A stretch of 64,000 nucleotides of DNA, taken from NCBI GenBank assembly GCA_029448655.1, contig JACCLO010000010.1, positions 496,001 through 560,000 of the forward strand. The letters are read 5' to 3'. The translations under genes and the position numbers were made by a program. Under the pieces are notes generated by a model, which made no database searches, was not told where the DNA came from, and worked only from the letters and a program-made list of their open reading frames with translations. Below, piece by piece: positions 94-47,148 of this stretch (its first letter is position 1; each line of letters begins with the position of its first letter). The stretch is from Wolfiporia cocos. Its lineage: Eukaryota; Basidiomycota; Agaricomycetes; Polyporales; Phaeolaceae.

Positions 94-1366
94 TGTCACA
101 GAATTCCCAGTGGGGGGTTCCGACTTCCCTCGCTATAGGTATTCACAGGCGCCGCTAGGTGCGCGCGCGTCTTCTTGAACCTCAGCCACCTCCAGCGTCT
201 CCTCTTTGCCATTTAGATCATCTGACTCAGTAGTTTAGCACTGTAGGGTAGCGCGCACTGTTACGGGTCGAATACCCGTTCGTATATTCGAGTTGTGAAT
301 ATAGATCGTTCTTCTGCACGTAGGCACGTTGCCGTATGCAAGGCAAATGTTCGTTAGATGCCTTCAAGTCCTAGATATAATTTCTAGGAGATCGGTTAAT
401 ATCCAATGCGCGTTAGAGGATATAATCTGTTCAGGTGTGAGTCTGATAGAATATAAGACTCGCCTAAGTCCGAGAAGTCAATGTGCACTTCGAGGACTTA
501 GTCGTTCGATGCTCGAGTGAGAAATACTGAGCGTAGTTTCCTACGTTTGAGAACGAGTATAAGACTTCTTGTTTGTACAACAAGGTAGAGCTGAAGAGCC
601 TCGACAAATAAGTACATGAGCTTTTATACTACGCGAGGTTTTAGGGGTCAAGTTCGTCCCAGATGCCACCGCTACTATCTACGCTATAGTACCAGACGTT
701 TGATGAGTATGTAGTGATACATCCGAAACGATAGATAGGAATGATGATGGCGGTTGAACGCCATCTGTCAGCTAATAAATGATAAACACGAAACGAGGAC
801 AGAGTTGGATCTGTCAGAGTCGAAACACGCCCTATCTGCTAGTACATCCGGGGTTAACCCGGTAGAGTCACGAATAGCCAGGGGGTTGGTTGTGCAACAA
901 GTCCCTGTATCGTATTCACCCTATGGTGAGTTCTGCCAGCGTTCAAAGAATTCAAAATAACTGTAACACACACCTCAGGTACGGACACGTTACGGTCACA
1001 GTAGTTACATGTATGTTACTTGTCATGTGCCTCTTAGATAATGCGCACGGGCCATTACTTTAGGGCACGACTCGTAGTTACAAACATCATGTATATATTA
1101 CGTCGAGATGTGGGCTTACACCCCATCTCTCAGATTCTCGTCAATGGGTTAAATCTCCTTACACTCCTTTTGTCTGCGTTACTACTGGCCCGGGGCCCAT
1201 TTCTTGTCTGCTAGTCTGTGTGTTCCGCCTTCGACGTTTGGGTCACCTCGCGACCTAGTCGCTTGGATGTGCCTGCGTACGCCGTTGCGCGTTGAGGCAT
1301 AGCCTATGCAGGCATGCGTGGAGTCCCCATGTCACCATGGTCGCACAGACAGGTGTGTCTGTGACA
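94..1366 (+). repeat. Solo LTR (hairpin family), split by a nested LTR
   Basis: Begins TGTCACAGA and ends CTGTGACA. It is flanked by the 5-bp duplication tgatg (89-93 and 1367-1371). The insertion at 259-968 lies inside it, so its own length is about 558 bp. It reads on the plus strand: TATA-like gtatatatt near 1091, then a hairpin at 1105-1129 (arms gagatg-ggg and cccc-atctc). No internal coding region remains, so it is read as a solo LTR left by recombination. The flanking gatgatg is low complexity, so the duplication is slightly less certain than for other copies. Confidence 0.7.
259..968 (-). repeat. Solo LTR, second family (copy 1)
   Basis: Starts TGTTACGGG and ends ACTGTAACA on the plus strand; flanked by cgcac / cacac, a 4-of-5 match whose difference is a CpG transition. 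The same roughly 700-bp sequence recurs at 3725-4887 (same strand), and at 3055-3648 and 20053-20380 (opposite strand). Read on the minus strand it has a TATA-like tataaaagc near 635 followed by a short palindrome (gagctgaagagcctc) and a cttgt..acaag hairpin near 575. It is nested in the LTR at 94-1366. Confidence 0.65.
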
Positions 1367-1371
1367 TGATG

Positions 1372-2861
1372 ACTCTGCCAGTCCTAAGTGGGGGCGGCCA
1401 TCCATTGACAAGGACACTAGTCGCTGGATCCCAGACTAGCAGCGGTGAGAGGAGTGACACAGACATACTGTCTGTGCGGCTGGCCCATAGCCAGGATAAC
1501 CTCATAGCCTCAACGTCGATGTCCCAGCCCATGGTGCAAGGGAATGACAAGGCAACGATCCATCTTCAGTGGCATAGGGTCTTCTGTAGGGAGTGCCCAA
1601 GTCCCAGAAGAGAGCCTACCCAGACTAGCAAGTCAAGAAACTAATAGCGAGGCAACACAGCACACAGAATGAGACTGAAAGAGGGCCTAAGCCCCATTGC
1701 TGAAAATTCTAAGAATGAGGTATAAAAGCTCATTCACCATACTTATATACATTCTGTAGTACCTAAGTGGCTTTCCCTAAAGTCCTGGCCTGTGCGCAGT
1801 AAACTAAAGGTCCACATGACAAGTGACTACCATAATGTAACATGTAACAAGTGTGACCGTGTGTGAGTAAGGGAGACGCGCGCTACCCTACAGCGCTAAT
1901 CTAATGGGTCAGGTGCCTGTAATGGGGTCTAGAGAGCGAGCATCGAGGAAACCTGAGGTGAAGACTTAGCCCCGCGCTCAGGGGTGCTTCTGCAGAAAGG
2001 GACGTCGTAGAACCCCCTATGGACAGTTCTGTGACAAGGAGCAGTTGTTGCCAGCATGCAAGCACACAGTAGAGAAGGAGTTCCCAGGGGACACACCCCC
2101 TAGGCCTACAATAGTAGTTCTGAGGAGTACCTCAGAATGCTACCTAGTATATATACATGAAGACACTGTCTAGCTGACACAAACTTACTCACTTATACTT
2201 CTTGAGGTTTAGATGAGAGGGGATAAGGTGGCAGCGAGTTAGTTGAGTGCTTAGGTCGATGTACGATTCAGCAGGAGTCAAGAGGTGATTAGTTCTGAGT
2301 GGTACGCTCAGAGGATTACGGGTTATATACATGTATCGGCAACAGTGTAGATAAGTCTACCCTAAAGCCGAGGGGTCTGTGCACCGGCGGTAATGCCAGG
2401 CACGTGATACGGGGTGTGGCGGGGAGCCGCGTAGCCATGCCAATATGGGCGGCTACAGGGGACGCGTCAGCGTGTGCCTACTAGAGGGCCGCGTCAGCGT
2501 GCATCAAGGGGAGGTGCTTGCTATAGGCACCAGTCGAGGCCGCGTCAGCGTGGGTCTAAGGACGGTAGCTGCCGGGCGAGGTTCCACGGTCATGTGTTGG
2601 TGTTGAGGCAACGGCCGAGGAGGATTCGGGATGTGCCGTAGTCATGTGTCTAGACATAGGCGTGGGTTCTGGGTCACGTGTCTGTACGAGGACAGGTGCG
2701 CGAGGTAAGTACGTAGGTTAGGGTTACTAACTACGCATGGAGTATTCAATGTAGATAACGTGGTAGTTAACTACGAGTAAGTGCCTAATAACTACGTGTA
2801 GCTCTGTAGGAAGGCGGTAAATTCAGGTAAAAATAGGGTATGCCCTAGGAAATCTGTGACA
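1372..2861 (-). repeat. Fragmented hairpin-family LTRs, unresolved
   Basis: Surrounds the insertion at 1455-2036. Two separate hairpins followed by TATA-like sequence are present: 2118-2137 (TTCTGAGG, 4-nt loop, CCTCAGAA) with tatatacatg at 2150, and 2294-2312 (TCTGAG / CTCAGA) with tatatacatg near 2325 and ccctaaag near 2361. A possible LTR start tgacacaaac lies at 2175 and an end ctgtgaca at 2861, but their flanks (ctagc, gacag) do not match. The window itself opens with tgacacggg, which may be the outer end of the older of these two LTRs. Confidence 0.45.
1455..2036 (-). repeat. Solo LTR (hairpin family)
   Basis: Starts TGACACAGAC, ends TTCTGTGACA, with perfect 5-bp duplication aggag at 1450-1454 and 2037-2041. 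Hairpin at 1713-1735 (GAATGAG, loop gtataaaag, CTCATTC), then cttatatacat and ccctaaag in the usual order. The order hairpin-then-TATA on the plus strand means the LTR lies on the minus strand. 582 bp. Confidence 0.8.
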
Positions 2862-3054
2862 GACAGGTGAGAAGGAGAGAGGTGTGTAACTAGGGTTTAG
2901 TAAAGACTAAGTGGTGGCGCTAAGATGGGGGTGCAGCAAGGTTAGAGAGAAGGCAGGCTTCAACTTCCATGCCTTGGATGATGAGAGGGGAAGGTGTGTG
3001 AGTGAAGTGGATGTAGTGATTGCTATCATGGCAGTCAAGGGAGGAGAAGGTGAG
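2862..3054. other. Intergenic, nothing recognised
   Basis: Short gap between LTR remnants. I see no gene, hairpin or repeat that I can assign. Confidence 0.4.
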
Positions 3055-3648
3055 TGTTATGATGTTTTGTCTAGTGTGCACAGAACTCACTATTGATCAA
3101 GTACAACACAGGGACTTGTCATGCAACTTACCCCCCTGAAGTCTCATGATCCTATTGAACATAACCCCAGATGTACTGGTATGCTGGGGCTCATTTCAAG
3201 TTTGACAGGTGAAACCCTGTTCCCATTTCATATTTATCATTCTGTCAAACAGACAGCATTCAGCCACCACATATTCTATCATTCTAATCTATCATTACAG
3301 ATTCAACACTGCATACCTATCATACATTTCAGACTAGATTGTACTTAGTAGCAGTGACATCTGGGATGACCAGGACCATAGATACTCAGAGTAGTATATA
3401 AACCCATGTAACTAAGGTCAGAGCCCCTCAGCTTGATCTTGTTGTAATAACAAGAGTCTTATACCCACTCTCAAACTTGGGAAACAAAGCTCAGTATAAT
3501 CTATGATCTCCAAAGGTGAATAAGTGCCCACTGACTTATTGGACCAATGGCAAGTTAGCAAAACTCATCTATAGAACTTATATCCTTAGTGACATAAAAC
3601 TGTGTCTATGTACTATGTACTGCTGTAGCCATTAGGCCAAAAGTGACA
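3055..3648 (+). repeat. Solo LTR, second family (copy 3, decayed)
   Basis: Plus-strand copy of the family seen at 259-968. Starts tgttatgatg, contains tatataaacc near 3396 and the cttgttgtaataacaag hairpin near 3440. The proposed end is tgaca at 3648, with gtgag / gtgtg (4 of 5) as flanks. The left end and the body are clear; the right end is less certain. Confidence 0.5.
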
Positions 3649-3724
3649 GTGTGTCCTTTGTCAATGGTAATGTCAAGGTTCCCAGACTAGCATGGAGAGA
3701 GAGGACAATTAAGAGGGACAGGCC

Positions 3725-4887
3725 TGTTATGGGTCATATACTCATTCATTATAAAATCTGAGTTGTGAATATAAATCTTCTGCACTTGAGTCCCATGGAC
3801 GTGTGCAAGGCTCTTATAATACCCTATTCGTATTAAGCCTTCAAGCCCTAAGTCAAAGGACTCTAGGGGTTTGTGACACAGACTCACTCTGGGTCTGCGG
3901 CCTATTGAGGGGCTACCAGCACCGCTGGCTAGCATGGGGTATGGTGTCCTGGGTGTCGCGTACGATACTGCCCCAGAGACGGAACCACAGTCTAGCGCGG
4001 GGATATAGGGCAGAGCCCAGTAGACGTTGTCGTCGACGGAGGCACACAGAGGAGAGGTGTTGTATGAGGGACACGCCCCAACATTACAATAACTGTTCTG
4101 AGGAGTAAGCCTCAGAACGCTACAGACTATATACATGGTTGGCAACACTGGTGCTATGCCTACCCTAAAGGTGGCCCTAACGCTAGTTAGATAAGATAGC
4201 CGCTGTCTACATGTACAATCTATAAGTCAGGTGACCATGGGGGAGATCATGTGACAGGGGGACGTAGATATGTGAGTTCGACCCCGGCGTATGGCAATAT
4301 AAGGGTCACGTGAATAAACCATGACAGTTTGTTCAATTTTCAATACATGTTAGAGAATATATCTGTTCAAGGGTGCAAGTTGAAATAGAGGACTTGCCTA
4401 AGTCCAAGAAGTCTGTGTGCACTTTGAGGACTTAGTCATTCAATAGCTTGGCAAATACTAATTGTGGTTTCCTGTGTTTGAGAACAAGTATAAGACTTCT
4501 TGTTTATGCAACAAGGCTGAGCTGAAGAGCCTCAACACTAGTTACAAAGGCTTATATACTATGTCAGGTTTTAATAGTCCTACCAGTCCCAGATGTCACC
4601 AATACTATCTACATCATAGGCTGAAACATATGATAGGTATGTAGTGATATATCCAAAATGATAGATAGCAACAATATGGCAGTTGAAATCCATCTGTCAA
4701 TTGTAAAATGGTAAATATGGAATGGGGGCAGAGTTGGATCTGCCAGTCTGAAACAAGCTAGTACAACTGGGGTTGTGCATAGTAGAGTCATGAGTAGCCA
4801 GGGGGGTTGGTTGTACAACAAGTCCCTGTATTGTATTCACCCAATGGTGAGTTCTGCAAGCATTCAAAAAATAAAACAACTGTAAAA
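3725..4887 (-). repeat. Solo LTR, second family (copy 2), carrying a nested LTR
   Basis: Starts TGTTATGGG and ends ACTGTAAAA (terminal CA mutated to AA), with perfect duplication aggcc at 3720-3724 and 4888-4892. Removing the insertion at 3874-4326 leaves about 705 bp, matching copy 1 (710 bp). It sits inside another hairpin-family LTR whose remainder follows at 4888-5175. Confidence 0.75.
3874..4326 (-). repeat. Solo LTR (hairpin family), nested
   Basis: Starts TGACACAGAC, ends CCATGACA; perfect duplication gtttg at 3869-3873 and 4327-4331. Hairpin 4095-4118 (GTTCTGAGG / CCTCAGAAC, loop agtaag), TATA-like tatatacatg near 4128, ccctaaag near 4163. A tRNA T-arm-like gagttcgaccccg lies near 4275. 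453 bp. Confidence 0.82.
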
Positions 4888-5175
4888 AGGCCCCTATGTC
4901 AACATTACCAAGTTTGAGCTGTAAGGTTCAGACGATGTAGTGTATATACATGTGAAGCATTAGCACCTAGGGAGCTGCTCTCAAGATGGCTTGTGCACTG
5001 TGAAGCCCATTCCATGGTATACTTATGTAAGTACTCTATGCTACATGTGACTTAATGTGTAAGTATGTCTTTAGGTAACACCACATGGTATCTGTAAGTC
5101 AGGTTATGGGCTCATGGAGATGTTGGTTCAAGACCAGGGAGTGGCAATTAGTTTATGTCCCAGAAATCTGTGGCA
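4888..5175 (-). repeat. Remnant of an outer hairpin-family LTR
   Basis: Has a weak hairpin around ctgtaaggttcag near 4920, tatatacatg near 4943, a T-arm-like ggttcaagacc near 5125 and a degraded end ctgtggca at 5175. The other part should lie just left of 3725, but its start and target duplication could not be fixed. Confidence 0.4.
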
Positions 5176-5463
5176 CTTGAACTAGAATATTGAATGAGCA
5201 TGGGTATTTGACCTGTAACACACATGGTCTCAGCACATGAGGTCACACACTGATTTGTCTACTTTGTTTCTCACGCACTTTTTTTGAGATATTTGACACT
5301 CATGTCCAGAACAAGCTCAAGTGTTGATCACTCACCACCATCATTGCTGCCTGGCAGTGCTGGTACATACATTTAGTACTTGAGCTCAAGTTCTAATTGG
5401 CCATGCACTAGTGGCACTTTATGGTTGTTCTGCTCTGCAGCATCTCAGTCAACAGCTCCTTCA

Positions 5464-5898
5464 TGACACAAAACTTATCTAGTGTTGGTCCACCTAATGT
5501 TGGTCTAAGGTATTACTCCAAAGCTACGTCGCGTTGACTATGTTGGTGCGCAGCAGACCTCAGACAAGGCAGACGAGATGAGTAGAGTTGGGAACGCCCC
5601 AAGAGTACAATAACAAGTCTGAGGTTGTAAGACCTCAGACGTCTAGCTTATATACATGAGGAGCCAGTATGCTACCGAGTTGGGCCCACCCTAAAGGCAA
5701 GGGCCATGCGCACTAATGATGGGCAAGTCACATGTATGTATGTTATGTAAGCTAAACTGTTAGGTGACCAAGAGGGGGGCTACGTGTAACTACTAGTCCA
5801 CTATGTGATTGGCGTACCAGGTCATGTGACTAACCGACGTAAGTACCTGAGTTCGACCCCCGGTGGAGGCATACCTACATGCCACAGAATCTGTGACA
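5464..5898 (-). repeat. Solo LTR (hairpin family)
   Basis: Starts TGACACAAAA, ends ATCTGTGACA; perfect duplication cttca at 5459-5463 and 5899-5903. Perfect 9-bp hairpin at 5617-5640 (GTCTGAGGT / ACCTCAGAC, loop tgtaag), tatatacatg near 5649, ccctaaag near 5688. T-arm-like gagttcgaccccc near 5850. 435 bp. Confidence 0.85.
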
Positions 5899-5964
5899 CT
5901 TCATCAACTCACTCATATTGTTCCTGCTCAGCTGCCTGCTCATCATCATCCAGGTGTTTGTCAT

Positions 5965-6343
5965 TGTCACAAGCCAATTTTCTCCAACTAGCTAACAACT
6001 AGTGACAGACTCTAAACCCTTATCTTATCTTAGCACCCACCTATTGATCACATGCAAGGACCCCAAACACTCCACATGTGAGACCATGACCCCAGACACC
6101 CTGTGCCATATAGTTACACCCATTATAGGGTTACATACAATATAACGAACTATCAGCTTATGTAATAGCTGTACAGTAGCCAAACTTGTACAAACAGTAG
6201 AATAGCATATATACTGGGCAACAAGCTGGGTAGCACCCCAGACTCATCTTGGCCTTATAGGCCTTGAGTAGCCTCAGACTAGGGATACACCTTTGTGCGA
6301 GTTCTATCCCCCTGAATAGTTGCTTGAGATCATGCTTGTGTCA
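5965..6343 (+). repeat. Old solo LTR of the copy A/B retrotransposon family
   Basis: Matches the 371-bp LTR of the complete elements over its whole length: start TGTCACAAGCCAATTTT, the Tatcttatc stretch, catatatactgggc, the segment ccagactcatcttggcc and end GCTTGTGTCA. Flanks gtcat / ttcat match at 4 of 5. Diverged at many sites, so it is an older insertion than copies A and B. 379 bp. Confidence 0.78.
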
Positions 6344-7072
6344 TTCATGTGCAATGAGCTGTACTCAAGTAGGTGTCTGTGCTTTTTTCCCTGCCTTGTC
6401 ACAGAATGGCCCAATGGTGTTCTGACATCCCTTGCTGGTATGCAAAGGTGCCCCTAGGTGTGGGGCTAACTCCTTACTTTCAGCATTTCCTCTTTGTTGT
6501 GCCCTAGTCTCATCTTTGAACACCTGACCTTGTAGATTTAGTGCTGTAGGGTAGCACGTGCCTCTCTCACTCATGCTACGGTCACATGTAGGTAAGGTAG
6601 AGGACGCCAGGAACGGGCACCCCTTACATAATCAAGGTGCTACCAATACCAACTACCCTAATAACATTGACCACGGGCAATGTTTTGTGGATTTTCTCAA
6701 TAGGAAAGGACGTCCTCTTTCAATCCTATTGAGTGAGATCTTGAGATGTTGAGAATTGACCAAGCAATTTCCAAAAAAGTGAAAATTTTAGTTCTGACTT
6801 TTTTTGCACATTTTGAGGCTCCTGGTGCATTTTTGATTCCACAAGCACTGGGATTTGGCCACACCTAGCTTAGGGTTATATCACGTGATGGTACAAATCA
6901 GGCAAGTATAAACATCCTGGATCCCAGACCGGGATGGGTGCTTACATGTAAACTTCAGTGACATACGCAGACAGCAATAGCACCTTTCGATTAGCTTTAA
7001 ACTGCATTATTGCAGTACAGAAACTGTATTTGAATCATGCTACACCTATCCTATGTCTTCCGGAAATACATC

Positions 7073-7593
7073 TGACACAGACTTAGCTCTCTGTGTCCAA
7101 TCCCAACCGCTGGTCTTGTCTCTAAGGGACCTAGCGTCGTCTATAGGGGAGGCTACAATGCTAAGGAGGGTAGCCACCAGACTAGCAGGTGTAAGACGGA
7201 GGAGACGTCGCGCGGGCAGACAAGAAGAGACTATGAAAGAGGGCACACGCGCCCAACTGACATTAATAGGTCTGAGGTTGTAAGACCTCAGACGCTACTC
7301 TATATACTACATGACGGGACCGCTACGCTATGACTGAGGGGCATACCCTAAAGTGGGCTGGTCTGTGCGCAAGGTAGGTACAGTGTCATGTGAGGGGATG
7401 ACTAAGTAAGGGGGCGGTGCCAGGGCGCCACTACTATCAGTCAATGATCTAATCTAATCTATCTACCAGTCACGTGCCGTCAGGCAGGGGAGGGCGTAGT
7501 GACGAAGGGGTTAACGAACGTACAAGGGGAGGCGTAGTGACGTGGGATCGAGCCGGGACCCCTACAATATGTCAGAGGGTTAAAACCGTGACA
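7073..7593 (-). repeat. Solo LTR (hairpin family), nested
   Basis: Starts TGACACAGAC, ends CCGTGACA; perfect duplication acatc at 7068-7072 and 7594-7598. Perfect hairpin at 7270-7293 (GTCTGAGGT / ACCTCAGAC), tatatactacatg near 7302, ccctaaag near 7347. 521 bp. Confidence 0.82.
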
Positions 7594-7861
7594 ACATCAC
7601 CATATGGTGACGGAGAATCCTCAGGATTTGACTGTGGGAATCATCACGTGATCGGGATTATGTAAAGGTGCCCATTCCTAGTGTTCCCTACCTTACATAG
7701 CATCTATAGTCACATGTCCCCTTAGATACAGCACACAGGCCAGTACTTTAGGGCTAGGCTAGTAGTTACTATGCTCATGTATATATGTACAACAAGATGG
7801 GGCTTACTCCCCATCTTTGGGATTCTCGACAATGGGCTGAGGCCCCTTTTGTCTCACCTCT

Positions 7862-8504
7862 TGTCACAGTTTTGGGACATATTGACATTTTTTCCATATT
7901 TTTACCAATTTTCCTGGCATTTCTATGAGCATATCTATGGTTATGCTGTTAAGCGCCTGTATACACATAAACCTGCACAAGCAACATGTACATAATGCGC
8001 TAGTCACAGCATTTTACTCATCAGGCTACTCTCCGAAGTCATGCATCTTACTAATTCCCGGTATCGGGATATGTCACAACACTTATGTCCTTTGGCCCGT
8101 AGTTTATCACATGCCAAACGCACAACATGACTCGTATCCCAACTGGGCTATGTCATTAGTGCTGACCACACTTAGTCATTGTATGCAGCCACAATAGCAA
8201 CACGTCCAAACCTCGTTTCTTACTGGTGCGGTCATTACCGGCACACATGGTCTACTAGGTAGTTAGGACTTAGCTGTATTTCACCTCACGGTGCACAGAC
8301 CCATTACTGTAGGGCAGGGTAATAGTAACCACTGCTGCCACATGTATATAAGGGGTACTTAGCTGTCGCTAAATCCCAGACTTGTTCTCTGATATCGCAT
8401 CAAGTCACACACGCTTCCCTTGCACTCAGCTAGCCCCTCCCCTTTCACCTATAAACCCCTCAAGTTTATCGCTTATTGGTGAGTCCCACAGCTAGTCTGT
8501 GTCA
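7862..8504 (+). repeat. Solo LTR (hairpin family), nested
   Basis: Starts TGTCACAGTTTTGG, ends TAGTCTGTGTCA; perfect duplication cctct at 7857-7861 and 8505-8509. TATA-like catgtatataagg at 8341, hairpin 8359-8372 (TTAGC / GCTAA, loop tgtc). 643 bp. Confidence 0.82.
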
Positions 8505-8810
8505 CCTCTCTGTGTGTGCTTGCCTTGTCGCTCTGACCCTCTCATCTTTCTGGTGCACGCTGCCTGATCACATCGACTTAGGAGTCCTGAGCCATGTTTG
8601 CTCCGGTATGTTGATGTTCACTGCTGGCTAGGTATGCTGTTGCTTGCCAGGTGTTATGGAGTCCCTGGTAGGGCCAGTCCCACAGACGTGGTACATCTGT
8701 GTCATGCCTCTTCTGCCTCTCCCCACTAGTCTCTGCTGCTCCTGACATGTGCTGACAACTGTACCCTGACATGATCATGGTCATGCTCCTGTTCAGCCCC
8801 ATTGCTGCTT

Positions 8811-9435
8811 TGTCACAGATTTTCTACTAACTATGATTTTCCTAGCATGTATCATATTTTTCTACAATGTTCGCATTTATCTGCACATTCTACAAGTTAT
8901 CTATCAGTTACCTATCACTGCCACTCAAGCCAATCACTTATCTCATATTATGTAATAGTCCCTATCATATCTTAGGTCTCATTATCTATGTTGCATACTT
9001 GTAGCATCTTGAACCTTCTACAAGGTTCCACAGGGTTCCACCAGTTTCCATAACATTCTATGCCCAGACCTTAGACACAGTCTGGTCTCACTACATCACT
9101 TGTCACATTCCCTTACCAATCCCTGGTATTGGGATATGTCAAGACATATGAGTCACCCTGTGCACCCTCAGTCAACATGCTCAGAGATTAACACATGCTT
9201 CAGGCAATGCCATCACCGGTCATTGACCCTACACCCCAACAGTAGCATTAGTCCTACCTACAGTATCAGGGGTCTTACCCATCATGTATATAAGCTTGCC
9301 TCTAAGTCATTGTAGACTTGGATTTGATCTCTTCAATATCCAGTACACATTTCCTCTGCTGCTTGCCTTAACTCACTTTACTTGCTTTTATCACCTTTCA
9401 AGCCATTGCAACATAACAAGTGAGTTTCTGTGTCA
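8811..9435 (+). repeat. Solo LTR (hairpin family)
   Basis: Starts TGTCACAGATTTTC, ends TTCTGTGTCA; flanks tgctt / tgctg (4 of 5). catgtatataagc near 9284, short hairpin 9304-9319 (AAGTC / GACTT). 625 bp. The bases 9436-9669 that follow hold no gene I recognise. Confidence 0.7.
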
Positions 9436-9669
9436 TGCTGCACTTGCAGACTCACACAAGTTCTGCTGCGCCACCATCTGCCCCACCTCAATCATGCTCA
9501 TCCTGCCCTTATATTCCCATGTACTGCCATACTTGCACATGACTGATGAATGCATCTGGTACAGGGCTTCATCATCCTCTGTGGGGCCTCAAGCTTGCAT
9601 CACACAACACTGTGTTGGGCATGATATGTGTGTGCTTCTCAATCATCTACTTGCTCTTCCTTGAGGCTA

Positions 9670-10140
9670 TGACACAAACTCCTATGGACGTACTTCAGCC
9701 CCTATCCCCTAAGTCCTAACTACCATGCTGTAAGACGAGACGAGGTTGTGTCTCTATTGTCTAACGTCGATGGTAGCTGGAGGGTACTCAGAGCGCACGC
9801 CTAGTGGTAGTGAGAGAGGAGGGCTATCGCCCATACATCAGAATAACAAGTCTGGGGAGTAAGCCCCAGACGACGCAGTATATATACATGTAGAGGCAAC
9901 GTAACTAAGACGGAGCAGCCCACCCTAAAGGGGGCCATGCACTCCTATAGTCATACAGTCACGCTATGGCGCCATCTACATACCACGTGTACTGGACCGG
10001 CGGGGCGGGCGTACTGTAGCGTACCACTATCTACGACGCGCTTTATCTAATCTACTGATCACATGACCTCGCTCGCATCCGTTCGTGCGTTCGACCCACG
10101 GCGAGGGCAAACAAGCATGCCACAGATAAAATCTGTGACA
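9670..10140 (-). repeat. Solo LTR (hairpin family)
   Basis: Starts TGACACAAAC, ends AATCTGTGACA. Hairpin 9850-9871 (GTCTGGGG, loop agtaag, CCCCAGAC), tatatacatg near 9882, ccctaaag near 9924, T-arm-like gcgttcgaccc near 10089. The 8-bp gaggctat occurs on both sides (9663-9670 and 10141-10148), longer than the 5 bp of sibling copies. 471 bp. Confidence 0.75.
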
Positions 10141-10737: not shown

Positions 10738-11001
10738 ATGTGCATTCTGCAGCTGCTCATGGCACACAGAGTCACAGATATGCAGGCAAAGCTTCACATG
10801 GAGATTTTCACAGTGTGTGTGGACATGGGCAGTGACATCCTGTCTGGCCAACTTAACAATCTGTCTTCCCTGAGACTATATAATAGGCAGATTTACTATG
10901 AGGTCTTCAGATCCCTTACACCCTTAGACAACTTTAGAGAAAACAACTTGAGCAAACTAAAGCTGACAGTTGAGGGCAACAGCACATCATGCTCAAATAT
11001 C
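10738..11001 (+). pseudogene. Leucine-rich fragment, possible F-box/LRR relic
   Basis: An open stretch of 88 codons with leucine-rich wording such as GQLNNLSSLRLYNRQI followed by LSKLKLTVEG, similar in style to the C-terminal repeats of fungal F-box/LRR proteins. It lies just upstream of a clearer F-box-like start at 11239 and may be the tail of a second, tandem copy. No start, intron signals or full repeat register can be supported, and the assignment rests only on the leucine pattern. Confidence 0.3.
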
Positions 11002-12802: not shown

Positions 12803-14303
12803 CTTGTGCAGAGCGGGTGTGAAGATCCCAATTGGGTTCCTGCAGACAAATGTTTATGAATGAGATATATTGGATGAGAGCATGCCTGCAATACTGTAGT
12901 AAATCACTGTATATTCCAGCTCAGCCACCATCATACTGGTTAATTTATATTAGATGGGTGTATATCCTCAAGTGAGGACCAAATGCCAGTAGCAATGTTC
13001 AGGGAGATGCCACATGCCCATTTCCATTCACCATCCCTGGTCCACTTCCTTTCTCCCTCTCCACAAATGCCAGATATAATTGTTAAAACCACTCAAGCAC
13101 CAGTGCCCCTTCATCTGAATGCTCATCCCATGCAGCCACAGAGTCAATTCCCACCCCCTTGTAGCCCAAACAATCACTGAACACTGTGAGCTTTGGGAAC
13201 CATGTTTCCTCCTCCTTGCTCATCCCTTCACCTGCAGCAGAGGTAGGGATGCACTGCACAGGTGTGAGTGTGGTGTGTGGCATGGCCACTGCCGGTCATG
13301 AAGTTGACATACAGCAAGCCGAGCATGTGCACAAAATAGAACACAAGCATGTAGAACTCAAGGATGTACAGCCAGAGCAACTCCACTATCTTCTTCATCA
13401 CTGTGATCCTCAGCAAGACAAGGTAGTGGCTGATTGCTGGCAACCAAATATTGACTTGAGGTGATGGGGAACGTTGCACAGTTAGATTGAGAGGGTAAGT
13501 GCAGTAATAATAGGGCTTGTTAGGCTGTATAACTCAAAAGAATAGAGCTGAGGAGCAATCCTCAGCAAGTGCCATCTTATATACATAAAGACACACTATG
13601 GTGCCTAACCCTGCCCTAAACTAAGTGGTCCATACATTGTCCAGTAAGGGAGCACTATAATCACATGAATCAGGTCATTAATGATCCTGGTCCTGACAAG
13701 CCAATGAGATCCTCTGTATATGTAACCACTAAAGCTTTGTAAGGCCAAGCCATGCTCAAGGCTTGATCCAAACATGTACTGCAGCTGACTGATGTCTAAT
13801 CCTAACCTAATACTGATCATGTAACTGGATCTAGAGTTGATCCATGATACTCACTAAATCTGTGTATCACAATATGTGCCACAGACCCATGCAACAGTGC
13901 TCATGAGGCACATTAACCATTCCACCAAAAGGGCTACAATGACAGTTCAGCTGTCATTGTGGACCCAGTGACTTATGCAGGTGAATTTCCCACACTCATA
14001 TGCACAAGGTACCAGACTAACATCTCTTTTTGTGACATAGACTTAGATCTTTCTGCTCTGATGGTCTATGAGGGCTATTCCTTTCGAGCATGTCTAAATC
14101 TGTGACATCATGTGGCTGAAACTGTACAGCAATATAGTCCAGCACAGTGGCATCTAATATAAGTCCTAATATACGCTTATCCCTAGTAACATGACATGCT
14201 GTCCACAGCATGCTTACATAATAACTTTCCACAGTGGTGTGCAAGTGGTGACTATCCTTGGGCATCTAAATGCATCATGTGCATAGAAGTCCAAAGGCAT
14301 GTG
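12803..14303. other. Intergenic with one hairpin-family LTR remnant
   Basis: A hairpin GCTGAGG / CCTCAGC (loop agcaat) at 13547-13566 is followed by cttatatacat near 13575 and a degraded ccctaaac near 13614, the signature of a minus-strand solo LTR. Its ends could not be found (a possible end near 13870). The rest holds only short, unconvincing reading frames. Confidence 0.4.
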
Positions 14304-15395: not shown

Positions 15396-15400
15396 ATGTG

Positions 15401-16068
15401 TGGACACTTATTTCAGAAAATCAAGTATGTTTTGGGGAAAACCATGACAGTAAGACAGAAGTCTTAGAGGCAGTAGAGAAGAAGGGTAACCCCCAAATAT
15501 AGGGATTGAACAAGGTGAATAGAACTGAGGCTTATAGTGCCTCAGAGCACTGGCTTACATGTATATACACAAAGGGTAGTACTCTAGAGGCCAGTAAGGG
15601 CCCCTGACCACCTACAGCCACAACAATGTGATTGGTTGTCAGTAGATGGTACCACTTTGTAAATCAGCCAATAGTAAGTAATCACATGTTACAAGCTAAA
15701 TCATATGCTACTGCAAGTCTGGGCATGCCTATGGATAGACCACAGAGCCAGACCAATGACATCACTACCTAGCTTAACCCTACCTATGATATTATAGTCT
15801 AGATGTGGTATAAACAGACAGAGAACCAGTCTAGAGGACTGGATGGCTTAATATTCAATATGCTGCTTATCTAAATAACCCCAAATAAGACCCCTTTTAG
15901 AAAGTAGTCACCTGCCACTATCCATGAACATGTGACCATGAGAACCTAGGACATATGGTACTCATCTGGAAGCATTTTTCAAGGGCATTCTGGTACAGGT
16001 CCCATGAGCTAAAAACTTAATGGATAAGGCACAGTGAGAAAAACAATGTCCACCACAAAACTGTGACA
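15401..16068 (-). repeat. Hairpin-family LTR remnant
   Basis: Hairpin CTGAGG / CCTCAG at 15525-15545, a TATA-like gtatatacac near 15560 and an end AACTGTGACA at 16068. Start and target duplication not found. No coding sequence seen. Confidence 0.45.
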
Positions 16069-16283
16069 CAGGGTTCATCATGGCCTGCAAGATTCATTAG
16101 CACACTGTGCTCTGTTGCTCAGCATGCACATGATGACCTTCTTGACGACATCTGCAAGGGGCTTCATGAGCTCAAAGTCCAATCATGACCTCCAACATTA
16201 TGACCATGACCCATTTGGTTCATAACCACAGTTCCAGAGGCTTATGGATACCCTCACAACACCATTTCATGAGGAGTTTTGTG

Positions 16284-16437
16284 TAGTGATGTGTAGGCCC
16301 AGCCCAGCCCAACAGCCCAGGCTTTGGCTTGGCTTTGGATGGCCCATGGCCTGTCAAAACCTCAAGCTGGACCCTCACTGATGGCTCACAGCTTGGCCTT
16401 GCCTGGGCCTGGGCTAAGCTAGGGCCTACCACTGCTA
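16284..16437. mobile_element. Short hAT-like MITE remnant
   Basis: A roughly 150-bp segment with imperfect inverted ends (tagtgatgtgtaggccc and gggcctaccactgcta) and subterminal repeats of the gcccag / ctgggc and ttggct type. This resembles the two clearer hAT-type elements in the window (34117-38032, 48615-49575). No matching 8-bp duplication was found. Confidence 0.4.
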
Positions 16438-16563
16438 GGATAGTTGTCACTATAACTCTTAGAGTTTGAAGTATACCTTTGCCAACTGTGTCACACACCA
16501 ATTTCAAGTCTCTAAGCACAGTACCTTTTCCGATCATCAAGAGCACCCCCAAGGCTGGAAACC

Positions 16564-18081
16564 TGTCACAGTTTTACAAGACAATCCCCACATTCTCTAT
16601 TTTCATAATTCAAGTCGTGCAACCCCCTTACTAGTACAGGTCTTCTCATCTACATCGTTATAATCACATGACCAAGGGCTTTCCAACGCACTAGAATTTA
16701 CTAAGTCACGTGACTTTCCAGGTCACATGACCTACTCTCTTATCACAGATTAGATAGGTGTCACTAAGTGCTATCATAGGCACCTAAACAGGTGACCTTA
16801 TCTCTTATCTTATCTGCACAAGTTACGACATCAGGATCCATTACTGGACCAGGCCATGACCTCATCATGACAACATCATGACCTCATAGATAAGCTTATC
16901 AGAAGACGTTCTGATGGGTTACATCTCAAATACCTGAAACATGATGATCAACAACATTAGAAGCCATCACTGACAACCCTCATCATTTAGAAGCCCTTAG
17001 GGCACCCCTTGAAGCTAGAAGCATAGCAATTCCATATATCAGTGTAGCTAGAAGCCACTTCAGCACTGCCTCTAAACTAGAAGCCTAGTTACATATGAAA
17101 TACTTACTCATCAAGTTGTCACAAGAAAGTACGTTTCTCTCTCCTCTAGCTAAATACTTGGTAGTTCCCTACTATACGGGCTAAGGGTGCCCTACTAAAC
17201 CCTTAAAGGCTGTAGCCACCAGCGCGCCCCTTACCGGACGCGTAGGAATATAGATATCCGGTCAAAGACGTAGACACGTGACCAGAACGCGTAGACACGT
17301 GACCGCGTAGCGGCACCTGATCTACAATGACTAGCGCCCAGCACCTGACAAGGTGTCTGGGGGCATATGAGTTCACAGGGTCTCATTACTGGGGCCCTGG
17401 TTACCATTACTACAGCCCAGGCTTGATGCCAGGCTCTTTCCCAGTCTTGTGCCCCAGCCTCCGGGCAATGATGGGCGCACAGACCATTCCTTGAGGGCAG
17501 GTAGTTACTAAGTAGTTAACCTGGAAACCCTCATGTATATATATCAGTGTCTGAGGTCACTAGGACCTCAGACTATGATTGTCATTTAGGACCCTGAAGG
17601 TCCCTTGAACCTCTCCGCTTGTGAGCCCCACTACTGCTTCTTGGATTGAACCTAGGAGTAGGGCCTCTGCTACAAACAGCGTAGCATGCCTTGTAGGTCT
17701 ACCCTTTGAGTCGACAGGGTAGTTTAGGGATCCCTCCCTGCGTGAGTCGTCTTGTGATACAAGTGTTATTAATAGATAGTACACCATTATCGCGCCATTA
17801 TTGGCAATTCTCACATTTATGCGCACAGACCACTATTTACAAACAAGTAGATACAAAGGCCAAGTATGAATGTATATAACTGAACGTCTAAGCGCCCTGT
17901 GATGCCTAGACTTAACAATTGCTGCTAGGGCATCATATTCTCTATGGGGGTGTTTCCCCTACTTTTCCTCTGAACCCTTGCTGGATGATTTGCGCTAGCT
18001 AGACTGCTACTTAGCCTCTCTAGTTTGAACTATGCGCTTGCAGCTTGAGACGTCAACTAAGACCAGTGGATTAGTGTGACA
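16564..18081 (+). repeat. Solo LTR (hairpin family), middle of the nest
   Basis: Starts TGTCACAGTTTTAC, ends TTAGTGTGACA; perfect duplication aaacc at 16559-16563 and 18082-18086. It contains 17117-17759, leaving about 870 bp of its own. TATA-like gtatataact near 17872 and hairpin 17886-17911 (GTCTAaGC / GCcTAGAC). Confidence 0.8.
17117..17759 (+). repeat. Solo LTR (hairpin family), innermost of the nest
   Basis: Starts TGTCACAAG, ends TCTTGTGATA (the usual TGTGTCA end altered); perfect duplication caagt at 17112-17116 and 17760-17764. catgtatatatatc near 17533 followed by a hairpin at 17549-17573 (GTCTGAGGT / ACCTCAGAC). 643 bp. Confidence 0.8.
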
Positions 18082-18726
18082 AAACCCGATGCCTCAGCTA
18101 GATCTAAGCCTCACGTACAAAACATCACAGGCACTAGCTAACAGCATCACCAGCCATGCCTAACAACCCTAGTCCCCAACCACATGTCCAGTCCAGTATA
18201 AAGCCAATAGGCAGTCACATGACCCCAACCAACTATGATGAGCCCAGTAGCACCTAACCAGACCAACCCCTTGCTACCTGGATCATAACTCATCAGGTCA
18301 CAACTACAGACTCACGGCTAGGACCATGTCCACCCAACCAACTGAACCCTAAGCCTCCCACCTCCACAAACTACAGCCACCTACTGGCTATATGGTCATT
18401 ACCGACCATGGACTCACGCCATTACTGGCACGGACTATGTACTATACAGACAAAGGCCCAAGGAAGGCCCTAAACCCCACAGCACCCTAGTCTACGGGGA
18501 ACACAGACCACGGGAAGCCCTTGTACAACTGAGGACCCTACCAGTCACAAGGCGCTATGCACCGATCACAGCCGATCATGCTCGATCACCCAAGGCCATG
18601 ACCGGCCAGTCCACGATCACTAGCTACGTCACCAATCACGGACTTAGAACCCCGCCATTACTGGCAAAGCCCCAATCAACGAGAACCACCGACTTGGGTC
18701 TAACTTGCTACGTTGCCATGGACATC

Positions 18727-18781
18727 CAGCGCCCTACGATCCCAGCACCCTACGATCCCAGCGCCCTACGATCCCAGCGCC
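18727..18781 (+). repeat. Threefold 17-bp tandem repeat in an LTR
   Basis: The unit cagcgccctacgatccc occurs three times in a row with one change, inside the long LTR at 16489-19014. The sister LTR at 55005-55935 has a single related segment here, so this is a local expansion. Confidence 0.75.
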
Positions 18782-19019
18782 CCAATGCCATTACTGGCCA
18801 CCACATAGCACGTAGTTTACCTCAGCACTGGCGCCTTATGGGCCACACACCATAATATGTACAAACAGTAGTAGAGCTATTTAATAGCCAGACAGTCTTG
18901 AGTGAACTTCAGACTTGTCTTGGCCTCTTCAGCCTTAGATGCCCCAGACCAGGAAGGCACCTTTGAGCGAGCCCCCTTCCCCCGGGTGTATGTCTTAGGT
19001 AGTAGTGTGTGTCAAACTG

Positions 19020-20052
19020 CTACCTGATGAAAAGAAGCCTTGAGACCTTCAATTTATAGTGGGATTAAGTATGATAATACATCAGTGTGGCATTAAATAC
19101 CACACCTGCCATATGAGTTATGGACTAGGTGCCCAATGGTGCATGGCAGGCTTCAACATTGAGGACTTGACTTACTGGCCTTTCTGTAGTCCATGATAAA
19201 CAACATAGATGCACTACATTTAAGTTAAGCACACTAATAGCCTATGTAAGCTAATATTGTGCCTGTGAAACAGAACTTACAGTGTCATTCCATCTAAGCT
19301 GTCTCCTAAGTTGCAATGTCCTGAGGCATCACAATGGGCTGTCCCCTAGTCTAGCAGTCAAAGAAGTAGAGCAGAGCAGTGTCATGCATGGTGAGAACAC
19401 CTGAAGCCTGAGGGCATAGCCCCACATTTGGATTACAAGATCTGAGTAGTAAGGCTCAGAGTGCAGTAGGTTAAGTACATGATAGTGAGCACATCCTATG
19501 TAGCTATTTAAAGGTGAGGGGGTCCATGCATAAATAGTCACACTACTATAGCTACACTCAGGTGACCATGTTATGATTCCTGAGATACAAAGGAAGCATT
19601 TGTACAGTACAGATCTGCCAGGTCTGCATCATGACAATTTGTGTTATACATGGGAATATAAAGTGAATGGTCATAAAATCGGTTTGTTCTCATGGTTATC
19701 CTACTGTAATGACAGCCTGCATGATGTGACTTGTACAAAGCCATACAAACATTGGAGATTGATGCCTGGCCCTTATCTCTCCCCAGCCTAATCTATCTAA
19801 TCTAGTCATCCATAGACACTATGGTCATGCCTCAAACAAATAGTTGCCAACAAACAGCCATACTTCATGCATCTCAATGCCCATGAATTTGGCCATTATA
19901 TATCAGTATAACTACATGTCTATTGATAAACATAGATTTTGAGCATGAAGAAACACATATCTTCCATTAGAATCAACATGGATTGTCCATCAACAATTGA
20001 TTTATACAGTCAGGTCCTGAAGGAAAGCAAGTTACAATCCCCAAGGTACAAA
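19020..20052. other. Intergenic with an LTR hairpin remnant
   Basis: Hairpin TCTGAG / CTCAGA at 19441-19460 followed by taagtacatg marks a minus-strand hairpin-family LTR whose ends I could not locate. Otherwise only short reading frames without recognisable content. Confidence 0.35.
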
Positions 20053-20380
20053 TGTTATGGATATTTTGTTTTCTCAAAGAATGCTGGCAGAACTCACCAC
20101 TGGGTGAATACAATACAGGGACTTGTTGCACAACCAACCCCCCTGGCTATTTGTGATCACACTGGGCCTAACCCCAGTTGTACTAGTGTATAGGGCACGT
20201 TCGGACCCTGGCAGATCCAACTCTGCCCTCATTTCATATTTATCATTCTGTGATTGACAGATGGTGTTCAACCACCGTATCATTCCTATCTATCGTTTCA
20301 GATGTATCACTACATACTTATCAAACATTTCATACTATAGTGTAGATAGTATCGGTGACATCTGGAATGGACTTTTAAGA
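20053..20380 (+). repeat. LTR fragment, second family (copy 4)
   Basis: Plus-strand copy of the family at 259-968, matching from its start (tgttatggat) through the segment ggacttgttgcacaaccaac to the region near gacatctggaatgg. The match appears to stop near 20380, before the TATA and hairpin part, so the element is truncated. Confidence 0.6.
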
Positions 20381-22160
20381 CCCCCTAGAGTGATCTGAGA
20401 TGGTCTGAATCATGTATGTACCACTAGATATTAGGGTGAACATGTCAGACAGAAGTTGATATGAATGGTAACAACCAAAAACTTTCTGATTTTAATGATA
20501 CAACGAAGCACTACTATTGTCTTGGACAATGCTTGACACATACAGTCTGTCCTCATATTATCACTAGTTTTGTTGACTGACATGCAGTTGTTCTTCCATC
20601 CAGTAGTGTTAACACTCACATATTATGATACACATGCATGCTGCATTCAATATCACCCAGTTATTGGCAGAGTGCTGCTTAGTGGTAGTTATATGCTGCT
20701 CATTGTGGCACATGCAAAATCACAATAAATATATCTCATCAGATACAACTTGAGGTGTGCAGTTACTGCAGTGGTATTTCTGTGTGTTGACTTCAGTCTA
20801 CAATTTTACTTTCAGAAATCAAAAATCAGTGCACCATAGCCAATTTTTGGGCAGTACCTAGTATGTTCTGATATATATTGAGTAGTAGGTACATGTTTGT
20901 TGCAGTTTATGACATATGAGATTGTGGTTAAGTCAATAACCACTTGATCGGTCCAGGACCAGCTCAGACTGGTCCTGGGACCACTATCACGGTCCTACCT
21001 GGGACCAGTCTTCAGTCCGGTCCTTCATTGCCCATGGCAGTCCAGTCCTGGTCCTGGTCCTCGGTCCTGCCCAAAACATGTAAAAGACCGGACTGGACCA
21101 GACCTCACAACACTAGTTCTTGCAAGGACACAGCACTCAGGCACTTGGTATTGTGAGGACTATACATGAGGTGCTTGATATTGCCAGGACCATACCTAAT
21201 GTCCTCAACAGCAGTGCAGAGATACAGATTGGAGATGCCAGTTCCATAACATATATTGTAGTGACACAGTGCAATACCAAAGAAAAATTGATTTCATGTG
21301 TAATATGCATATGTACAATCATGTCATTAGGGCCAGCTACTGATGGAAGGGGCTACATAATAACCACAGAAAAGCACTCAGTCACTGCCACTCCCATCCA
21401 TATCATGCATGGCAATGCACTCTTAGTATCAGCATGAACATATGCCATGGGCATGGTGTGAACATTATACACTGCCACTGCCATGAGCATGTCGGACATA
21501 TGTCAGTTGTGAGTCACTACAAGCAGGAAGGAGGCAAAAGGGATGCACAGGAGCTGTGAATGTGACAGGCATGGCAAGTGCCAAGCTGAGCTACATGCTC
21601 GGTGGTAAGTAGGGTGAGATGGGGTATAGCTGTGAGGGGGTTGAGCAGGGCTGTAGTAGATGGGCTGGAGTGCTGGAAGTCAATGTGCTCAGTGTGCAAT
21701 GGTGCAATCACAGTCACACATTTATGAAACCTATCCAACATACCATTTCGGTGACCCCCACCATTAGTATATTGCATTGGCTTCATGGGACCAATCTCTC
21801 AAAATGAATTTCATTTCTGAGGGACAGTCAACAGTGTTTGGTTTGTCAGAGAAGCAATACTCACAATATCTGCTTCAAACTCTAGAAGTAGCTTCTTATA
21901 GTTCATACAATTTGATGCGGGAGAAGTCTGAGGCAAACATGTGGAAGTGTCACAGATCTGGGACATACAGCAATTTTCCGTGCATTTATAGCAATTTATC
22001 CGGAATTACCACGTCTAACTACAAGCTATCTGGGAGTTATCCCACCATGCCTCACTCACACTAGGCTCATGCTTGGCTCATGCCAAAGCCAGTCTAGCCG
22101 CAAGGCCAGACCTCTACACATCATCTGCCTAGATCTGCAGAGTCTAGGTTATGACATCAC
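20381..22160. other. Intergenic, no gene recognised
   Basis: Contains the end of a hAT-like element (see 20941-21108) and, near 21948, a possible LTR start (tgtcacagatctggg) with no partner end found. Short reading frames here show no recognisable domains. Confidence 0.35.
20941..21108. mobile_element. One end of a hAT-like element
   Basis: The segment is packed with ggtcc / ggacc subterminal motifs (for example ctggtcctggtcctcggtcc) and ends cctcacaacacta, the same CAACACTA terminus seen in the two bounded hAT-type elements of this window. The opposite end and target duplication are missing, so this is a truncated copy. Confidence 0.5.
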
Positions 22161-22729
22161 TGACACAGGTTCACATGTCTGTGGGACCCGCCCAGTGATA
22201 GTGATGGATGCCCTATGGCCTAATGGGTGACAGCGACCCACCAGAGGACATCTGCAGCCAACGGGGATCTTTACCTACCCCAGTGTCGAGGCATCATGGT
22301 CTGAAGTTCCATGCATCTGAAAAGCCAGCAGAGTCCCAGAGCAAACCACACACAGAGAGGATATGAGAAAGAAGGGCCTCACCCTAGATTGTTGAGAATC
22401 CTAAAGATGGGGAGTAAACCCCATCATCTGCCTACTTATATACATGTGAAGAGAACAGTACAGGCGTGCCCTAAAGTAATGGTCTGTGTGCACTGCAAGA
22501 CATAACTATGGGTGACCTAGAGGTAATGCTACATGTAACAAGAGGGTGACCAATCATGTGAGTACCTGGCAATGTGTGCTACCAGGAGCGCTAATCTAAT
22601 GGATCAGGTGGTATCTATGGTGTCTTAGGTGCGATGAGAGGAAACCTGTAAGTAAGGAGTTAGCCGTGCATGCAGTGGCGCCTTTGCAATGCAAATAAGT
22701 CAATAGAACCAATGGACCATTCTGTGACA
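22161..22729 (-). repeat. Solo LTR (hairpin family)
   Basis: Starts TGACACAGGT, ends ATTCTGTGACA; perfect duplication atcac at 22156-22160 and 22730-22734. Hairpin 22406-22425 (GATGGGG, loop agtaaa, CCCCATC), tatatacatg near 22437, ccctaaag near 22469. 569 bp. Confidence 0.83.
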
Positions 22730-22859
22730 ATCACAATGCACACCATCTTGCGTAATAATGGCACCATAGTATAATAATAGCTGCAAGGCATTATTGCTAT
22801 TGGTCCAACACTTGTGGACCACCTCTGGACTCTGGCAAAAGCCAAGTCCCGGACTCTAG

Positions 22860-23268
22860 TGTCACGGTGCTACTTACCGTGGCCCCCTATCCAAGAGCGT
22901 GCACGCGTAACGACATTATGTCAAGTGCTGCGCAGAGGCAGCCCTGGTCCTAGGTTGATGAGGCGGGCAGGTGCACACACGGAGGGTAGCAGAGAGGCCT
23001 TAGCCTAACGACTAGAATCTAGAGGATGAGGTGCTAACCTCAATCCTCGCTTAGCTAAGTACATGATGCATCACTTGTAGACTACTTGCCCTAAAGGGGC
23101 CCATGCGCCGCAGCCCAACGCATGTGCTACTTGTAACTACTGTAACACATCATGTGCTACTTGTGACCTTGTGATGATGTGACACCTGTAAGGGCGCCCC
23201 CATCTAATCTAACGATCTAATCTACATGGTCACCGGACACACAAGGCGGCGTGCCACACTCTGTGACA
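22860..23268 (-). repeat. Solo LTR (hairpin family)
   Basis: Starts TGTCACGGTG, ends CTCTGTGACA; perfect duplication tctag at 22855-22859 and 23269-23273. Hairpin 23023-23047 (AGGATGAGG / CCTCAATCCT with one bulge), taagtacatg near 23055, ccctaaag near 23090. 409 bp. Confidence 0.8.
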
Positions 23269-23437
23269 TCTAGCCTTATGGCCCATCCACCCCTGGCCCC
23301 TCTAGGCCACCTTGTCATAGCTACAGCCTCACGCCCCCAGCCAATGGCACAACTGACTCAGCACCTAGCCTTAGTCAGCCCTGGACCTGACAAATAGCCA
23401 TAGTCCCTCACTTTACCGGATCACCAGTTATACCTTT

Positions 23438-23707
23438 TGTCACAGACTTATTTTTCCTATGTCTGACGTTCCCCAGGTCATGTGATATACGGTAGATCAG
23501 TGGTAGATTAGATTAGGGGTGCATATCCTGATGGTCACAGTAGTCACAGGTGACGTTATGTTGTTACATCATGATCCTTAGTTATGCTCAGACCAGGAGC
23601 TTTAGGGCAGCCATAGCACATTCGTTGACAACACCTGCATATTACACCACAAGAATGAGGCTTACTCCTCATTCTTGTTATTCTCATCTATAGGGGCTGT
23701 GTCGTCT
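23438..23707 (+). repeat. Short solo LTR (hairpin family)
   Basis: Starts TGTCACAGACTT and carries hairpin 23652-23675 (AGAATGAGG, loop cttact, CCTCATTCT). A degraded end ctgtgtcg lies near 23698-23704; the flank ccttt on both sides (23433-23437, 23708-23712) suggests the true boundary, with a small change at the end. Confidence 0.5.
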
Positions 23708-23764
23708 CCTTTCAACGATACTCCCTGCTTCTGCGCGTGCCTCCTTGACACAAAACGCCATGGG

Positions 23765-24155
23765 TGTACTGTCATACTAGAAGCCTTGTCACATATAGCA
23801 GAAGGGCCCCCCGGACTACCACGCATAACACATAGAGTAGAGAGGGGACTTTCCCCAACGTCTACAACAACAGTTCTGGGGAGTAAGCCCCAGAACGTCG
23901 CAGCTTAAGTACATGAGGAGACGTTGCCTATACTACTGGAGACCCGCCCTAAAGGCAGGGTCTGTGCACAGTACTAGCGCTCCTAAGTCATGTGCTACTT
24001 AGCTAAGCTACTGACCATGTGACCTGTCATAGGGTTGGCGACTCTAACCATTATACTACGCTACACTAAGTCCATACACAGGCACGTGACTGTCACTACA
24101 CAAGACCTTCGGTTCGAGACAGGGGGGGTGGGACCTTCCTGCAGAATCTGTGACA
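23765..24155 (-). repeat. Solo LTR (hairpin family)
   Basis: Hairpin 23873-23896 (GTTCTGGGG, loop agtaag, CCCCAGAAC), then taagtacatg and ccctaaag; ends GAATCTGTGACA. A T-arm-like ggttcgagac lies near 24111. Start placed at tgtactg with flanks atggg / atggt (4 of 5); an alternative start tgacacaaaa at 23746 has no matching flank. Confidence 0.55.
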
Positions 24156-33057: not shown

Positions 33058-33058
33058 A

Positions 33059-39261: not shown

Positions 39262-39262
39262 T

Positions 39263-45035: not shown

Positions 45036-45055
45036 TTATCCCTCGGGACGAAGAA

Positions 45056-47125: not shown

Positions 47126-47148
47126 AAGATACTATGACGAAGTCACAG

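Follow-up and report, generated by a model that had tools for sequence, protein, structure and literature searches.

The long terminal repeats (LTRs) of a 64,000-nt stretch of the Wolfiporia cocos genome (contig JACCLO010000010.1, C2:496001-560000; hereafter the window) carry a hairpin shortly after the TATA box, and we could confirm that this hairpin is real and that its two arms pair in a lineage-specific manner. The LTRs very probably belong to a large self-primed clan with priming of the Tf1/sushi type, comprising solo LTRs, short elements and autonomous Ty3/gypsy families, of which there are at least two. The best overall explanation that we can offer combines this self-primed identity with a hairpin that checks the transcription start; taken as a whole, we hold it tentatively, leaning slightly against it. 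Searches covered the entire genome (64.4 Mb, 76 contigs).

Lineage-specific pairing of the hairpin arms

We observed CATGTATATA followed at 8-28 nt by the loop CTTACW 1355 times genome-wide, and the reversed-pattern control twice. The patterns CTGRGGCTTACWCCYCAG and ATGRGGCTTACWCCYCAT were present in 520 and 318 copies, with reversed controls at 0 for both. An LTR search with a piece of L042 was dropped (39 of its 40 rows matched solely a part away from the hairpin). For an arm-swap test, 138 distinct CATGTATATA sites in sampled DNA were thinned by identity; since most of them entered through loop-motif searches, they are not a random LTR sample. Among 81 representatives less than 85% identical, the stem score was 7.33 with own arms and 5.08 in arm-swapped chimeras (permutation z=17.1), and the effect was found at other identity cut-offs (n=112, z=19.2; n=41, less than 75% identical, z=10.8). 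Scores of at least 7 were reached by 57 of the 81, against 15.5% of the chimeras. Of the 12 representatives scoring below 5.5, inspection by eye took some five to be plain TATATA words outside LTRs, and the remainder to be LTRs with weaker stems.

RNAalifold predicted zero pairs on a plain, unanchored alignment of 70 LTR starts, from which seven sites judged non-LTR had been removed by hand. We attribute this null result to stems of different loop type sitting one column out of register, and therefore used an anchored set of 47 ungapped 26-mers, obtained from the 70 rows by removing 21 without TTAC at the loop and two duplicates (the arm-swap test kept all rows dropped from both sets). In the anchored set 79.1% of cells paired (56.1±1.6 when shuffled), doubly changed cells numbered 129 (48.6±6.6) and the covariation score was 0.642 (0.246±0.020), none of 500 shuffles being as high in any of the three; with one arm slid, the score was 0.087-0.219. 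Two other measures say little: the double-change pair count (10 vs 8.9 shuffled, equalled in 63/500 shuffles) and the pair-type count (30, equalled in 153/500). Outer stem pairs occur in this set as all four Watson-Crick types. A preliminary description of the window had held that the pairing rather than the sequence is kept, and both the arm swaps and the doubly changed cells bear this out; covariation analysis, of the kind that it proposed for all LTR copies, is positive in the anchored shuffles and null for RNAalifold on the plain alignment.

At an A-U/G-C test pair, the first 100 of the 520 copies and the first 100 of the 318 were scored by eye as Watson-Crick in 100 and 96 cases. The exceptions among these 200 listed hairpins, many of which are relatives, were two G-U and two A-C. 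A separate tally gave three of each.

Between positions 1 and 24000 of the window we counted 19 such hairpins, in keeping with the 'about 20 copies' announced in the preliminary description. Re-reading the window found both arms at all ten places named there, and nine hairpins were added (1105, 2118, 2294, 7794, 9301, 13547, 15525, 19441, 23873). On the plus strand lie GAGATGtGGG/CCCCATCTC (1105..1129), AAGATGGGG/CCCCATCTT (7794..7817), TTAGC/GCTAA (8359..8372, a 5-bp stem, weak if taken alone), TCTAAGTC/GACTTGGA with one G-U (9301..9322), GTCTGAGGTC/GACCTCAGAC (17549..17573) and AGAATGAGG/CCTCATTCT (23652..23675). The first of these belongs to the LTR of a short element with the predicted primer ATCTCTCAGATT; hairpin and primer are identical to those of the complete elements L039 and L047, which have the matching primer-binding site (PBS). 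The minus strand carries GAATGAG/CTCATTC (1713..1735), TTCTGAGG/CCTCAGAA (2118..2137), TCTGAG/CTCAGA (2294..2312), GTTCTGAGG/CCTCAGAAC (4095..4118), GTCTGAGGT/ACCTCAGAC twice (5617..5640 and 7270..7293), GTCTGGGG/CCCCAGAC (9850..9871), GCTGAGG/CCTCAGC (13547..13566), CTGAGGC/GCCTCAG (15525..15545), a weak hairpin (19441..19461), GATGGGG/CCCCATC (22406..22425), AGGATTGAGG/CCTCATCCT with one bulged base (23023..23047) and GTTCTGGGG/CCCCAGAAC (23873..23896). The constant place after the TATA box claimed earlier is mostly found, arm 1 lying 12-18 nt from the start of TATATA, with exceptions: hairpin 15525 is farther away (22 nt), those at 19441, 23023 and 23873 stand behind TACTTA in place of TATATA, and that at 23652 has only a weak ATATTA upstream. 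Rfam gave zero matches at the gathering threshold over window positions 1-48000.

Stems of at least 5.5 were found in 69 of the 81 representatives, and a start A could be assigned in 68 of these. It is preceded by C in 59 cases and by T in nine (the script demanded C or T before A), so numbered that transcription would begin at C-A or T-A about 33 nt from the start of the TATA box. Arm 2 then begins at -4 or -5 in 55/68, and its end falls between +2 and +5 in 51/68, with 3-6 of its pairs at or beyond +1 in 52/68; its first half is an initiator-like pyrimidine run and its second half the first primer bases. The preliminary description had placed the second arm where transcripts should begin and had put the self-primer of the complete elements at this place. 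The position of the arm agrees with the probable start, which the arm only straddles; the primer, 11-12 nt counted from an A inside arm 2, is a different stretch from arm 2 (about -4/-5 to +2..+5). Arm 1 therefore tracks merely the first few primer bases.

Probable self-primers and primer-binding sites

Twelve elements (L039-L047, L050 and two in the window) were chosen from LTR pairs, among 29 repeat pairs, blind to the PBS. In all 12, a stretch of 10-12 nt where the interior begins is complementary to one in the LTR. Thus the bases after the 5′ LTR do match the region of the probable RNA start, and a probable self-primer lies at the hairpin as had been described, arm 2 not being itself the primer. 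The complement starts 32-34 nt after TATATA in 11 of the 12, L050 having no TATATA. When 583 distinct TATAWA sites in the sampled DNA were scanned, 11-nt complements located 110-520 nt downstream peaked at the same offsets, 32-34 (13 elements), with 14 rows scattered over other offsets from 6 to 99. Four of seven later leads from LTR pairs also had a PBS, of 12 nt.

Nineteen copies, selected for having a PBS, represent 10 primers; primer and PBS match at 12 of 12 positions in 15 copies and at 11 of 12 in four. Each of the 10 primers matches its own PBS at 11-12 of 12 positions while the cross-lineage mean is 6.0, and of the 90 cross pairs only two attain 11, both coming from two primers one base apart. 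All 10 start with an A after C or T, where the complementarity ends. The PBS sits 1-2 nt past the 5′ LTR, and none of those tabulated for the 19 copies has TGG as its first letters, no search against tRNAs having been made. The first letters of the presumed RNA thus match the element's own primer site, and lineages therefore seem to carry private priming codes, of which this one genome holds at least 11 with matching PBSs (two differ by one base).

PBSs were also predicted from LTRs standing alone. For the LTR of hairpin 4095, with the predicted primer AGAACAGTTATT, we expected the PBS AATAACTGTTCT after TGWCAT; it occurs at two places in the genome, both behind an LTR with GTTCTGAGG opposite CCTC running into AGAACAGTTATT. 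The practical rule suggested, that a solo LTR reveals its primer and hence its PBS, held in this one of four trials. Co-evolution of primer, PBS and upstream arm, another earlier proposal, is supported by the lineage-matched primers and PBSs and by this prediction; arm 1 follows no more than the first few bases of the primer, which come down to +1 alone in the autonomous 10-kb family L107/L106 (family 2).

We then folded the leaders of 10 elements from the probable start to 60 nt beyond the PBS. In 10/10 folds, 10 or more of the 11-12 primer nucleotides paired with the PBS, and by eye a GACA/GTCA-like stretch near +16 also paired with the LTR end in 8/10. Among the 31 sites having both the +16 motif and the LTR end in range (sites missing either were left out), the two were concordant in 28 (GACA with TGTGTCA in 16, GTCA with TGTGACA in 12) and discordant in three (Fisher p 7.6e-6, relatedness not removed). 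The +16 motif is missing in L108 and L109. A second, weaker hairpin follows the primer in the R region, roughly between +20 and +35 (window 1145-1165 is one case), with arms such as GGGG..CCCC, GAGC..GCTC, GGAC..GTCC and GCAC..GTGC; its covariation is weak (z 3.8-4.1, 69 sequences; control windows -1.1 and -2.0). As a separate observation, the sequence after the PBS (ATCTTACC, ACTTTACC, ATTTACTC and others) resembles the loop CTTAC together with the run of C that precedes the start in L039-L047, L055, L099-L101, L105, L108 and L109, so that the PBS with its downstream sequence looks like a partial copy of arm 1 and loop.

Self-priming as such is known, and has been worked out chiefly in the yeast element Tf1, whose PBS is complementary to the first 11 bases of its RNA (PMC7175516). 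Other accounts describe a PBS adjoining the 5′ LTR and complementary to the RNA 5′ end in Tj1 (PMC4600332), further LTR/PBS-adjacent duplexes, the 'pretzel', in Tf1/sushi elements (PMC10085805), and, in the self-primed plant lineages Tcn1 and TAR, a PBS that can pair with part of the element's own LTR (PMC6317226). The present elements are like the Tf1/sushi group (Tf1, Tf2, Tj1, Tosmo1-3, Tcn1) in having, beside the 5′ LTR, a PBS complementary to the probable RNA 5′ end, a putative extra duplex next to LTR and PBS, a Tf2-1-like SH3 and, in family 2, a chromodomain; the +16/LTR-end pairing resembles one duplex of the pretzel. As in Tcn1 and TAR, the PBS has its complement within the LTR of the same element. 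Unlike the Tf1/sushi elements, they have a dUTPase inside the polyprotein and many primer codes in one genome. What appears to set them apart as a variant is the start-site hairpin with covarying arms: the passages surveyed from the Tf1/sushi descriptions do not mention one across the U3/R boundary, nor do those from the Tcn1/TAR descriptions mention a start-site hairpin, and no report of a U3/R start-site hairpin was found in the literature listings and passages surveyed.

Proposed role of the hairpin and alternative readings

In the mechanism that we propose, the RNA would pair through its first 11-12 nt with the PBS just past the 5′ LTR and would thereby prime reverse transcription. Arm 1 lies in U3; therefore the hairpin could form only in the 3′ LTR copy, in read-through RNA or in DNA, and a correctly started 5′ end, without arm 1, would be unable to form it. 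In the 3′ LTR copy and in read-through RNA, the hairpin would sequester the beginning of the primer copy. Pairing with the PBS would thereby be reserved for the true 5′ end, and the hairpin would serve as a start-site check. To mask the wrong primer copy in this way is the likeliest role that we can name for the hairpin, though we lean against it.

By the general logic of LTR reverse transcription, each cycle is expected to write the PBS anew from the primer. Primer-PBS identity would follow from this rewriting with no further assumption, and arm 1 would be forced to follow primer changes by the proposed masking; the two together would give a three-way co-change. In its fullest form, the proposal is that each lineage writes one code thrice (in arm 1, primer and PBS), with the hairpin as a checkpoint and lineages mutually deaf, with no cross-priming, which we regard as unlikely. 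If the checkpoint reading is true, changes would spread in concert to three places and lineages would be unable to prime each other's RNA. The more than 1000 LTR motifs with a varying start-site hairpin form a natural mutational series, which opens to testing how a self-primed element distinguishes the 5′ from the 3′ primer copy and how primer and PBS co-change without loss of function.

Masking has its strongest case in L050 and in gypsy family 1, and its weakest in family 2. In L050 the LTR palindrome GATAACAGC-caa-GCTGTTATC overlaps almost the whole primer, and its arm 1, GATAACAGC, has 8 nt in common with the PBS ATAACAGCTT; in autonomous family 1, arm 2 covers +4..+10. Several observations weigh against a self-primed clan with a checking hairpin. 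Primer nucleotides inside the hairpin number just 3-6 in 52/68 representatives and none in 2/68, and the family 2 hairpin pairs one primer position only, +1. Three of the seven later LTR-pair leads (L102-L104) have no PBS in the stretch retrieved. Three of the four PBSs predicted from LTRs alone, among them that of hairpin 5617, were absent from the genome, which fits lineages left only as solo LTRs and does not prove it. Finally, G-U is no commoner than A-C although G-U pairs ought to be acceptable if sense RNA were what is constrained, so that masking gains no help here; the cells being few, this comparison is weak either way and uninformative.

Promoter action in DNA is a serious rival, if rather unlikely to be the answer. 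Here the inverted repeat, a near-perfect palindrome between TATA box and initiator (pyrimidine run plus A), would aid opening or start choice, or else be bound by a factor reading shape and not sequence. A position fairly fixed relative to TATA and probable start speaks for it, as do the starts at CA (59/68) or TA (9/68; a preceding C or T was required by the script) and the scarcity of mismatches and lack of any G-U excess over A-C, as a constraint on double-stranded DNA predicts. However, a dimer reading sequence would fix the sequence, while each of the four Watson-Crick types is found among the outer pairs, and no such case was found in the portions of literature surveyed. It is quite unlikely that the hairpin and the weaker second one at about +20..+35 together make the 3′ R region a landing site in first strand transfer, where about +6 to +15 would be kept open for minus strong-stop DNA. 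The weak covariation of the second hairpin (z 3.8-4.1, controls -1.1 and -2.0) is consistent with this, and by eye the stretch is largely open in 4 of 10 U3/R folds (L043, L055, L099, L105), but it is closed in the remaining ones.

Arms could also change together because one is copied from the other by quasi-palindrome template switching, the pairing not being selected. One-sided intermediates are indeed few and 196 of the 200 listed hairpins were Watson-Crick by eye at the tested pair, a count that overstates the number of events because many listed copies are relatives; copying alone leaves the fixed position in very different LTRs unexplained, and we find this account improbable. Shared ancestry only, with few lineages of fixed arms mimicking covariation, is hardly credible: many copies are close relatives, the shuffles of the 47 sequences keep ancestry and two of the five covariation measures are unremarkable, but the effect persists in representatives less than 75% identical (n=41, z=10.8) and the slid-arm controls fail (0.087-0.219 vs 0.642).

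Elements carrying the LTRs

The window contains two complete Ty3/gypsy elements, detected by repeat pair and domain search. Element 1 (25194..33429, minus strand) has LTRs at 25194-25564 and 33059-33429 and the target-site duplication (TSD) TAGAT; its 5′ LTR has the start-site hairpin AGACGAG...CTCGTCT (33153..33182), the primer AGACTCGTCTT (33152-33162) and, as its 11-nt complement, the PBS AAGACGAGTCT (33047..33057). Element 2 (38891..47125, plus strand), with LTRs at about 38891-39261 and 46755-47125, is flanked by AAGAT on both sides as read from its bounds. Its start-site hairpin lies in the 5′ LTR at 39138..39167, its primer at 39158-39168 and its PBS AAGACGAGTCT, the primer complement, at 39263..39273. 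Both elements encode dUTPase, reverse transcriptase, RNase H, integrase and a Tf2-1-like SH3, with no Pfam match to a chromodomain, tail included. The protein closest to the integrase frame of the window comes from Wolfiporia cocos, with 85% identity across 59% of the query, and one homologue is called Tf2-12 polyprotein by its source.

Family 2 (about 10.0 kb, identical 699-bp LTRs) has the domains of the window elements plus a chromodomain (PF00385, 7.8e-11), and its primer AGATTTGTTCT is complementary to its own PBS over 11 nt. In one family the dUTPase stands before protease and reverse transcriptase, in family 2 at the C-terminus; polyprotein frames with dUTPase lie at 26130-30491 (minus) and 39975-45035 (plus) of the window and at L106:3493-8076. 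Two family 2 LTRs stand head to head, about 136 bases apart (L106:8120-9501).

Short elements have LTRs of 0.49-0.56 kb, an interior of 0.77-0.80 kb (771-796 nt) with no recognised gene, and a purine-rich stretch ahead of the 3′ LTR. Matching 5-bp TSDs were found in eight of nine; the ninth, L039, has TATAG once its bounds are shifted by one base. L050 (6235-7147) is a very short element (LTR 233, interior 447). The longest stop-free interior stretch is 95-188 aa in the nine and 73 aa in L050, which recalls terminal-repeat retrotransposons in miniature (TRIMs). Unlike classic TRIMs, which are smaller and tRNA-primed, the present elements are larger and self-primed. From similar LTR ends and priming, we infer that the autonomous families may mobilise the short ones.

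Some minor observations were also made. At G000:C45:954807-957812, three LTR matches of the same family are spaced by exactly 1300 bases, like LTR-interior-LTR-interior-LTR. Of the 29 repeat pairs, those in L056 and L058 include pairs with LTR-like ends. A unit of about 1 kb is present in the window in three diverged copies, 77-80% identical (47126-48304, 52368-53536 and 56499-57505).

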